Shown one piece after another: positions 30,226 through 46,528 of a DNA stretch of 64,000 nucleotides (position 1 is its first letter; every line of letters starts with the position of its first letter). Position numbers and translations under genes: made by a program. Origin of the DNA: Methanohalophilus mahii DSM 5219 (GTDB taxonomy: Archaea > Halobacteriota > Methanosarcinia > Methanosarcinales > Methanosarcinaceae); contig NC_014002.1 in NCBI RefSeq assembly GCF_000025865.1, forward strand, positions 558,001 through 622,000, written 5' to 3'. The notes beneath the pieces were generated by a model. The model searched no databases. It saw only the letters and a list, made by a program, of their open reading frames with translations, and was not told the DNA's origin.

Positions 30226-30243
30226 TATCCTCTTCTTTTTTTA
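30212..30243 (+). terminator. Terminator with the mscS stop codon in its loop
   Basis: AAGAGGAT (30212-30219) and ATCCTCTT (30227-30234) form an 8-bp stem. The TAA stop (30223-30225) lies in the 7-base loop, and CTTTTTTTA follows. It may also serve the convergent trpB2. Confidence 0.72.
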
Positions 30244-31542
30244 TTCGTTTCCAAGTTCCCCATTGAAATACTTGTCATAGGAAGTCATATCAAAATGACC
30301 ATGGCCACTCAGATTGAGCAGGATTGTCTTTTCTTCCCCTGTTTCCTTGCATTTCAGTGCTTCATCGATAGCACATTTGATTGCATGGGATGATTCAGGA
30401 GCTGGGGCAAATCCCTCTGTGCGGGCAAAGGTCACACCTGCTTCGAATACTTCGATCTGGTGGTAGTTTGTGGCTTCCATGAGACCTTCATTGACAAGCT
30501 GGCTGATTATGGGTGAACAACCGTGATAGCGCAGTCCACCGGCATGTATTGCAGGCGGGATGAAATCGTATCCCAGGGTATGCATTTTCAACAATGGTGT
30601 CATTTTTGCCATATCACCGTAATCATATCTGAATTCCCCTGCGCTTAAGGTAGGACATGCGGATGGTTCTACACCGATAACTCTCAGATCATTACCATCT
30701 ATTTTATCTTTGATGAATGGAAGCCCGATTCCTGCAAGGTTACTACCGCCACCACAGCAGCCGATTACGATGTCTGGGTAATCCTCGGCCATTTTCATCT
30801 GTTCCTGGGTTTCCAGTCCTATTATTGTCTGGTGATGCATTACATGGTTAAGTACACTACCCAATGCATATTTGGTATTATCATTGAGAGCAGCATCTTC
30901 CACAGCTTCACTGATGGCTATACCCAGACTTCCGCTTGTATCAGGGAAATCTTCCTGTATCTTCCTGCCAAACTGGGTCTCATTGCTCGGGGATGGAATT
31001 ACATTTGCTCCCCAGAGGTTGATGAGGGATTTTCTGTAAGGTTTCTGGTAGAAACTGGATTGTACCATGTATACCTTACATTCAATATCAAAATAGTTGC
31101 ATGCAAGAGAAAGAGCACTTCCCCACTGTCCTGCTCCCGTTTCAGTAGTGATCCTTTCGGTTCCCTCTTTCATGTTGTAGTAAGCCTGGGCAATGGAGGT
31201 GTTGGGTTTGTGGCTGCCAGCAGGGCTCACACCTTCATGTTTGTAGTAGATTTTTGCAGGTGTGTCAAGTTCCTTTTCAAGTCTTGAGGCACGGTAGAGG
31301 GGTGATGGTCTCCAGAGCTTATAGATATCTTTTATTTCATCGGGGATGTTTATGTAACGCTTATCAGACATTTCCTGTTTGATAAGTTCCCTGGCAAAAA
31401 GAGGTTCGAGTTCCTCCGGTTTGATTGGTTCATTTGTTGCAGGATTCAATGGAGGCTCAAGGGGAGTGGGCATGTCAGGTAATATGTTATACCATTTTTT
31501 TGGCATATCATTTTCATCGAGTATATATTTTGTATATTCCAT
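30241..31542 (-). CDS. trpB2: Tryptophan synthase beta chain 2 (TrpB2)
   Basis: A PLP enzyme that joins indole and serine to tryptophan; TrpB2 forms are thought to salvage free indole and usually lack a tight TrpA partner. 433 residues with the longer N-terminus typical of TrpB2. The PLP lysine is Lys112 in AGSHKPNTS. The phosphate loop [10 protein letters not shown] and the ETGAGQWG motif (Glu base) are intact. No trpA lies nearby. The upstream region carries three GTAC motifs at 10-bp steps, a candidate tryptophan-dependent operator. Confidence 0.94.
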
Positions 31543-31558
31543 GATAAGTCACTCTTCT

Positions 31559-31587
31559 GTGTACACTTTAGTACTGTTTTGTACGCA
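31559..31587 (-). promoter_or_regulatory. Putative TrpY-like operator upstream of trpB2
   Basis: Three GTAC cores start at 31561, 31571 and 31581, exactly one helical turn apart, 17-43 bases before the trpB2 ATG. The first is a full TGTACA (31560-31565) inside the palindrome GTGTACAC, the second AGTACT, the third TGTACG. TGTACA is the TRP-box core bound by TrpY in Methanothermobacter. A TTAAATAA element at about 31598-31605 would be the TATA box, placing the motifs at the start site. The regulator itself is not in the window. Confidence 0.6.
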
Positions 31588-31660
31588 CAGTTGTTTATTT
31601 AAGACTATCGGATAATCATACCGGAAAAGGTTGCAAAAGAAAAGATATATTCGTGAATTT

Positions 31661-32194
31661 TTAGGGTTTGCAACCCAGTTTTACTCTTTCTTCTGGTGAG
31701 AGGGATAAATAAAAATCGACGATTTCAAGATCATTATAATGTTTGCTATGCAAAACTTCAAAAAAACGGTCAAGTTTTTGGATAGTTTCCTTGTGCATGG
31801 GCTTTAAAGACATGAATTCTTTTGATTCTTTTTCCAAACCCACTTTTGCAAGCTTGTCTGCCAGTACTTTCACTGTTTCTCTATCCTGTTTCAAAAATTG
31901 TTGCCTTATGTAATCTATGTCATCCCTGGAATTATCAAATCCCTCTTTGTTTTCCCTGAATTCTTTTGCAGTAATATCATCATAAAGATGCATATACCTT
32001 TGATGCAATTTTGCACTTTTTTCCATGTACCAGTACCAGAAACCATTGTCCATATCAGGATTACTTTCCCTTGTACCATGGCTACTTCTTTCTTTTGCCT
32101 TTTTGACCAGCCATTCCCTTCTCCATTTATTGAATTCTGAATCGGGGTTCTGACTGGTCTCAGAGGCTTGGTTTGGACTATCCCCACTCTTCAT
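31661..32194 (-). CDS. Hypothetical protein, 177 residues
   Basis: Not recognised. The product is highly charged and predicted helical throughout, with a Ser/Asn-rich first 20 residues, a W/Y-rich segment (GFWYWYMEKSAKLHQRYMHLYDD) and a long charged helix region after it. The C-terminal part has an LSPEERVKLG helix. No signal peptide, membrane span or cysteine pair is seen. It lies alone between trpB2 and hmgA on the minus strand. It is probably a real lineage-specific protein. Confidence 0.65.
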   Translation of the reverse strand: MKSGDSPNQASETSQNPDSEFNKWRREWLVKKAKERSSHGTRESNPDMDNGFWYWYMEKSAKLHQRYMHLYDDITAKEFRENKEGFDNSRDDIDYIRQQFLKQDRETVKVLADKLAKVGLEKESKEFMSLKPMHKETIQKLDRFFEVLHSKHYNDLEIVDFYLSLSPEERVKLGCKP

Positions 32195-35420: not shown

Positions 35421-36419
35421 TCAATCTTCCCTGTAAATGGATATAAGGTCGCTCAGGATCGCACTTGCGGTCTCGATAGAACCCGCACCCCTGCCAGTTG
35501 AGGTAACCGTGCCTGCCAGGTCGGTCTGCACCGAAATCACATTAAGGGTTCCCCCTACAGCAAGTGGGTGGCTTTCCGGTACAAGACGTGGTGATGTTTG
35601 GATTAATCCGTCCTTTACTTCCCCGATCTGCTTGATGACATATCCTTCGGATTGAGCCAGTGCAAGTGCTTCCGGGGTAATGCTGGTAATACCTTTTACA
35701 TCCACATCATGGTATGTTGCTTTCATATCGAATACATAGTTTGCAAGGATTACAAGTTTACAGGCAGCATCGATCCCTTCCACATCATAGGTTGGGTCGG
35801 TTTCAGCAATCCCTAACTCCTGGGATTCTGCAAGCATCTGTTCATATGATGCGTGCTCTTCCATCATCCTTGTTAAGATGTAATTGCAGGTTCCATTCAG
35901 GATTCCTTCAATACTGATAATTGAGTTGCCTGCTATAGTATCACGTATCAGGTTTATTGCCGGCATGGCACCACCGACAGTTGCCTCAAACCTGAATTTA
36001 GCATTGTTTTTTTGGGCAGCTTCTGCAAGTTCCCCGTATTTGAGGGCCAGGGGGCCTTTGTTGGATGTGACCACATCCATTCCTTTTTCAAAAGCTGTCA
36101 ACATGTTTTCAAGGCCCACTCCTCCGGTTTCAATATCGGTAGGGGTGGTTTCAATGACAACTTCATGTTCTACATTCCTGATAATTTCCAGGCCACTAAG
36201 TGTTTCGGATCCCACTCGTCCATTTTCCTTTTTACTGTTGAGGACCATTTCAAGATCAAGGCCTTTCTCATCGATAGCAGCACTTCTCGAATCTGCCACA
36301 GCAACAACTTTCAGGTCAAAACCCTTTTTTTGAATCTCTTTTTTTTTCTGGAGGAATACTTGAGCTGCTCCCTGTCCTACAGAACCAAAACCGATTATAG
36401 ATGCACGAATCATTTTCAT
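35421..36419 (-). CDS. hom: Homoserine dehydrogenase
   Basis: It reduces aspartate semialdehyde to homoserine for threonine and methionine synthesis. 332 residues, the short form without a C-terminal ACT domain. The Rossmann motif [11 protein letters not shown] is at the N-terminus, [11 protein letters not shown] in the middle, and the family signature [13 protein letters not shown] near residue 170. The missing ACT function seems to be supplied by the separate ACT-domain gene directly upstream. Confidence 0.95.
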
Positions 36420-36431
36420 ATGTATAACACC

Positions 36432-36938
36432 TCAGGAAAATTCTGCCCGTATGGGCTCAACAACAAGCAGGTCTTTTTTCTCTGCAACATCTTTGAGTAT
36501 GCTGATTGCTTCATGCAGTTCCTTTATCCCGACAGCACAAATCTTCAGGGAAGCAGATGAAGTGGTGTTTATGTGGGGCATGGAAAGGGAAATATCCACA
36601 ACTTCTGCATAGCCGGTCCTGTCAATGCTGTCGATGGTGTCCTGAATATCAGTATGGACGATATGGCCAATCAGGATTACTGCTCCTTCCTCGATCAACC
36701 TCTCTTCATCTACTCTGCTGATGCCGATACCATTTTCTTCCAGTTTTTCTATAATTGCATCGAGATTATCAGGTTCAGCCTCAAAAACGAGCTGTACTGG
36801 AATGGTGCCTCTTGGTGTCCTTTCTTCATGATGGTGGACAATTGATTTCAGGTTCCCGCGTAATTCTGATATGGGTGTCAGAGCGCAAAGGAGCTGACCT
36901 GGCGTGTCTTTCAGTTCTATATCCATTGAAACTCTCAT
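36432..36938 (-). CDS. ACT-domain amino-acid-binding protein (partner of homoserine dehydrogenase)
   Basis: 168 residues made of two ACT-like halves: MRVSMDIELKDTPGQLLCALTPISELRGN is a clear ligand-binding ACT start, and the second half ends KDLLVVEPIRAEF. The ATG has a perfect AGGAGGTCAC ribosome binding site, so it leads the hom transcript. It most likely gives allosteric feedback by threonine or another aspartate-family amino acid to the short homoserine dehydrogenase 12 bases downstream. That role is inferred. Confidence 0.85.
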   Translation of the reverse strand: MRVSMDIELKDTPGQLLCALTPISELRGNLKSIVHHHEERTPRGTIPVQLVFEAEPDNLDAIIEKLEENGIGISRVDEERLIEEGAVILIGHIVHTDIQDTIDSIDRTGYAEVVDISLSMPHINTTSSASLKICAVGIKELHEAISILKDVAEKKDLLVVEPIRAEFS

Positions 36939-46024: not shown

Positions 46025-46038
46025 TCAGTATATACTGA
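46025..46038. terminator. Palindrome between convergent genes
   Basis: TCAGTATATACTGA is a perfect 14-bp palindrome. It includes the stop codon of the minus-strand regulator and begins 3 bases after the reductase stop. It may act as a two-way 3' end or may be chance within coding sequence. Confidence 0.3.
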
Positions 46039-46528
46039 CCCCTTTTACACTTTTTATGCTAAGGATTTCATTTACAGTGTCCCCTGATACCTTTGAATCA
46101 GTGATGATTGTCATTTTAGCCTGATCGGTAAAATATGGATCATCTGAAACTGCTTGCCTGATACTGATACCGTGGGAGGCGATCACACCTGATACTTCTG
46201 AAAGAATACCTACTGTTGCCGCATCCTCAGGTGTAATAATTATTACACCAAGTCCCAGTGCAGGAGCCACATCCCTTAAGAAGGGGATCGAACGCACATT
46301 TTCGAATATGTTTCTAAGGGTTTCATCTTCAAGTATTGTGTTGGTAGTTGCATCTACTATCCTACGGTCCACACCTGCCTCTTTTGCGAGTTGGGTATGT
46401 GCAATATCTATCTTGCCGGAGGTCACTTTCCCGTCCTCTCTTACCTGAAAACCTCTTTCAAATAAAATTTTTAGTACCTTTTGTTGGGCAGGATGTTTTT
46501 CAAACTTTTCAAGTAACATTTTCCACAT
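46025..46528 (-). CDS. Regulator with helix-turn-helix and ACT domains
   Basis: About 167 residues. The N-terminal half has KVLKILFERGFQV and a helix-turn-helix (IAHTQLAKEAGVDRRIVDATTNTIL). The C-terminal half is an ACT domain (VGILSEVSGVIASHGISIRQAVSD) that would bind an amino acid. The arrangement suggests regulation of amino acid metabolism, but the target is unknown. The start is uncertain among GTG 46537, ATG 46528 and ATG 46519; I chose 46528 because GTGATC precedes it. Confidence 0.8.
   Translation of the reverse strand: MWKMLLEKFEKHPAQQKVLKILFERGFQVREDGKVTSGKIDIAHTQLAKEAGVDRRIVDATTNTILEDETLRNIFENVRSIPFLRDVAPALGLGVIIITPEDAATVGILSEVSGVIASHGISIRQAVSDDPYFTDQAKMTIITDSKVSGDTVNEILSIKSVKGVSIY

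Follow-up and report, generated by a model that had tools for sequence, protein, structure and literature searches.

The window analysed here, a stretch of 64,000 nucleotides from the genome of Methanohalophilus mahii DSM 5219, contains the gene trpB2 on its minus strand (30241..31542, start codon ATG at 31542-31540). The gene encodes a TrpB-like PLP enzyme of 433 aa (NF009057, 735.9 bits; TIGR01415, trpB_rel, 660.5 bits with a cut-off of 519) and is preceded, 19-42 bases 5' of the start codon, by three phased GTAC boxes that lie 10 bp apart and form a candidate operator (31560..31586, minus strand). Read on the plus strand, the GTAC motifs start at 31561, 31571 and 31581 in the window sequence, exactly as had been described in a first-pass annotation, which placed the array 17-43 bases before the start codon and was thus 1-2 bases off. 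In the direction of transcription, on the minus strand, box 1 (31581..31584, within TGTACG on the plus strand) is closest to a TATA-like promoter element, CTTAAATAAA (31594..31603, minus strand), box 2 (31571..31574) reads AGTACT, and box 3 (31561..31564) is closest to the start codon, within the TGTACA at 31560-31565 that the annotation had counted as the first box. The array lies just downstream of the TATA-like box, the centre of which is 16 bp upstream of the centre of box 1. Since the distance between TATA box and transcription start in archaea is usually about 25 bp, we infer that trpB2 transcription starts within box 2 and that the array straddles the start, in line with the location over the expected start that had been proposed before. 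An uncharacterised ORF of 177 aa is found directly upstream on the same strand (31661-32194), and despite its presence trpB2 appears to have its own promoter.

The hexamer TGTACA by itself is uninformative, as it is found 22 times in the window where 12.8 occurrences are expected; the signal is carried by the spacing, with two occurrences of GTAC-N6-GTAC against 0.18 expected, both of them in the trpB2 array. A search of the complete genome (2,012,424 bases) returned the strict GTAC triplet at two places, in front of trpB2 and in front of the gene for 2-amino-3,7-dideoxy-D-threo-hept-6-ulosonate (ADH) synthase (TIGR01949, 374 bits, cut-off 299), the first enzyme of the archaeal aromatic pathway, with which the synthesis of all aromatic amino acids begins. 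When one mismatch was allowed five places were found, including one directly before trpC of trpCBA (C1:1227315-1227338) and one directly before trpD of trpDFEG (C1:1502190-1502213), the genes of both clusters being named from their sequences and homology. The remaining near-match (C1:781295) is located inside an unrelated ORF and was taken as chance. The further phased arrays that the annotation had suggested looking for are thus present, and the relaxed pattern RTAC-N6-RTAC-N6-RTAC matches at exactly four places in the 2.01 Mb. These are the sites in front of trpB2, trpCBA, trpDFEG and the ADH synthase gene, and the distance to the start codon of the aromatic-pathway gene is 3-20 bases in each case. 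A paralogue resembling ADH synthase (C1:268033-268818 of the same genome, 61% identical) has no triplet in front.

The reversed control pattern yielded three matches in the same genome, so the number of triplets is unremarkable and it is their location that is remarkable: the chance that all four fall at aromatic promoters is about 1e-13 in a back-of-the-envelope estimate that allots about 1.2 kb of the 2.01 Mb to the promoters of some 10 aromatic operons. In many genomes, likewise, relaxed RTAC triplets are about as frequent as the reversed control, as would be expected if the 10-bp spacing were a coincidence in an AT-rich promoter. We consider such a coincidence hardly credible, given that every one of the four sites found here is located at an aromatic promoter and, decisively, that conservation is specific to a spacing of 10 in three promoters. 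The latter became apparent when sequences 5' of these genes in relatives were searched for three GTAC boxes at each unit spacing from 6 to 16 and scored (maximal score 12). At spacing 10 the mean best score was 9.9 for trpB2 (n=30), 9.88 for trpC (n=26) and 9.2 for trpD (n=25), and at every other spacing it was 6.6-7.8 (6.9-7.6 for trpB2 alone). A score of at least 10 was reached at spacing 10 by 18/30 trpB2, 20/26 trpC and 14/25 trpD loci and at any other spacing by 0-3, counts that overstate the number of independent cases because the relatives are mutually related. The flanks vary between genera and the 10-bp spacing is constant; GTAC-like boxes are thus kept in front of trpB2 within the family, a check that the annotation had proposed. 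The consensus unit derived from 51 unique arrays reads T, G/A, T, A, C, A, T and hence has the core TGTACA, which is the TRP-box core. The arrays of the relatives are also located downstream of a TATA-like element, mostly with 16-20 bp between its centre and that of the first box.

In a pattern search of 31 genomes of the family there were 40 places where GTAC is matched exactly at least twice, and 25 of these are within 120 bp upstream of trp or aro starts. A trpE promoter was among the matches, although trpE had not been a search target; in one genome the phased array lies directly before trpE (L275:2169-2192; G120:C135). Most of the other triplets in these genomes were set aside, as they fall within coding sequence or simple repeats. 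In the larger genomes of two genera (g6 and g7) the array is present at trpC and absent at trpD; there, both genes are found on the same strand in a stretch of about 4 kb and are likely to form a single operon headed by trpC. The array before the ADH synthase gene was found at 3 of 30 loci, all within the genus Methanohalophilus and none outside it, and ADH synthase was accordingly rejected as a member of the regulon beyond this genus. A gene for a LysE-type amino-acid exporter (PF01810) is possibly an extra member of the regulon in one g7 genome, where an array of three boxes, preceded by a TATA-like element, is located about 150 bp ahead of it (L250:1501-1524, G101:C3:3258-3281). The other families of the order have partial boxes or none before trpB2, and in three of them (f2, f3 and f5) TrpY is present and the trpB2 triplets are weak or absent. 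Several f5 genomes carry ATAC-N6-GTAA-N6-GTTC before trpB2 (L214-L233), a degenerate phased version that may represent a diverged operator.

The proposed regulator of the array is encoded in the same window: the minus-strand ORF at 46025..46528 specifies a protein of 167 aa that belongs to the TrpY family of transcription regulators (NCBIfam NF053754, 227.3 bits, cut-off 180, positions 1-163 of 163). It is the only TrpY that the NF053754 profile search detected in the genome (C1:604037-604525), and within the order 105 of 120 genomes have a TrpY that scores above the cut-off of this profile. The first-pass annotation had read the trpB2 boxes as TrpY-type and had counted against this reading a motif that is not conserved or a genome that lacks TrpY; with the motif conserved and the regulator encoded, the reading gains support, and TrpY would be the protein that binds. 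The C-terminal part of the protein may resemble an ACT domain, judging from a Pfam ACT match below cut-off (23.8 bits, cut-off 27, E 3.7e-05) and from a single-sequence structure model of low overall confidence (mean pLDDT 60) in which residues 94-166 adopt, with moderate confidence, a beta-alpha-beta-beta-alpha-beta arrangement; residues 35-71 are below pLDDT 50 in that model. The protein gave no Pfam HTH match, and a search by sequence found no solved structural relative. It is 41-44% identical to its Methanobacteriales counterparts and has in common with them a DRR segment within the putative recognition helix. Residue G149 is found here and is invariant in seven Methanobacteriales TrpY sequences; its replacement by R is reported to abolish repression in Methanothermobacter. 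The trpY gene is not adjacent to trp genes, and no TrpY gene lies beside trpDFEG or trpCBA. None of 30 trpY promoters of relatives, which served as a negative control, reaches a score of 10, and autoregulation of trpY via such an array was rejected on this basis.

To our knowledge, experimental proof that TrpY has a role in tryptophan control comes from a single methanogen, a distant thermophile. The TrpY of Thermococcus kodakarensis, which is 42% identical to that of Methanothermobacter, does not bind specifically to the trp promoter and takes no part in trp regulation (PMC6737238), and with an identity of 41-44% to the Methanobacteriales proteins homology alone leaves the function of the protein studied here unsettled. 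A true operator of an aromatic regulon could thus be bound by another helix-turn-helix regulator while TrpY does something else, as in Thermococcus, and the trpY gene that is unlinked and without boxes, as well as the members of the order that have TrpY and no trpB2 triplets, would fit such an arrangement. We nevertheless consider it unlikely, given the phasing observed in the Methanobacteriales, which were entered via one Methanobrevibacter MAG (16S probe pattern). At several trpE loci of that order, an ORF of about 167 aa in divergent orientation matches the NCBIfam family TrpY_fam. In the trpY-trpE intergenic regions, GTAC-like pairs number 10, 7 and 8 at spacings of 10, 20 and 30 and 0-2 at others, although the nine loci are mutually related and represent few independent cases. 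The 10-bp phase identical to that of our arrays, found between trpY and trpE, ties the phasing to TrpY. The shared DRR segment also argues against a different regulator, as does the core TGTACA, which has reportedly been identified as the TrpY box.

Most probably, therefore, the three boxes serve as an operator in a tryptophan regulon of the TrpY type, in which TrpY represses when tryptophan is plentiful. The N-terminal part of the protein, which we take to bind DNA, would recognise TGTACA-like TRP boxes, and TrpY units on neighbouring boxes, with their exact 10-bp spacing, would be located on one face of the helix, where they may assemble cooperatively. The TATA box precedes the array by about 16-20 bp, so that TrpY assembled there would lie over the transcription start and prevent initiation. 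In the presence of ample tryptophan, the ACT-like part of TrpY would sense the amino acid and stabilise the repressing assembly on trpB2, trpCBA and trpDFEG, and in this genus on the ADH synthase gene too; when tryptophan is scarce these genes would be expressed. An activating role for TrpY or another protein on the array has a precedent in T. kodakarensis, where Tar (TK0271), a protein different from TrpY and encoded within the aro operon, activates three aromatic amino acid biosynthesis operons (PMC6737238). Such a role is very improbable here, since a protein bound downstream of the TATA box and over the expected start would obstruct initiation and since the TrpY of Methanothermobacter is a repressor (PMC6737238); the position of the array across the start favours repression by blocked initiation. 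The predicted regulon is like that of Tar in that a single regulator would control several aromatic operons, including part of the common pathway, and is unlike it in that the regulator is a TrpY, with repression suggested by the position of the boxes, instead of an activator encoded in the aro operon.

The system of Methanothermobacter thermautotrophicus (trpY-trpEGCFBAD; trpB2) likewise combines a TrpY-family regulator with boxes of TGTACA core over trp promoters. TrpY and TRP boxes are already known from Methanothermobacter, and trpB2 is reportedly among the TrpY targets in that genus, so that trpB2 as a target is no extension of the system. The extension to another lineage, which the first-pass annotation had also anticipated, is supported, and can be widened to trpCBA, trpDFEG and ADH synthase. 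In contrast to Methanothermobacter, where trpY is divergent from trpE and autoregulated, the trpY studied here, in another order of methanogens, is unlinked to trpE and has its own promoter without boxes; the arrays consist of three or more boxes, the trp genes are distributed over three transcription units, and ADH synthase is included in one genus. What is new is the lineage and the make-up of the regulon, along with strictly 10-bp arrays of at least three boxes and a trpY gene that is unlinked and not autoregulated. A literature search, mostly of journals available outside subscription, found no description of such TrpY arrays in the Methanosarcinales. On balance we favour the view that TrpY of Methanosarcinaceae-like methanogens assembles along strictly 10-bp phased boxes throughout its regulon, controls scattered tryptophan operons without autoregulation and took over ADH synthase in this genus, and that the 10-bp phase is an ancestral code, which the Methanobacteriales have in common with them.

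Few archaeal amino-acid regulators with a known operator have been described. For relatives of the genetically tractable Methanosarcina, the analysis predicts which genes form the regulon and which protein regulates it, and adds a rule for the box spacing. It offers a clean case of what may be archaeal repression by cooperative assembly on sites in helical phase. It also bears on the TrpY homologues in further branches of methanogens and haloarchaea, to which no function was assigned previously (PMC6737238). Finally, at 35421-36938 the window contains a homoserine-dehydrogenase-like gene beside an ORF of 168 aa that, judged by its sequence, resembles ACT-domain regulators.
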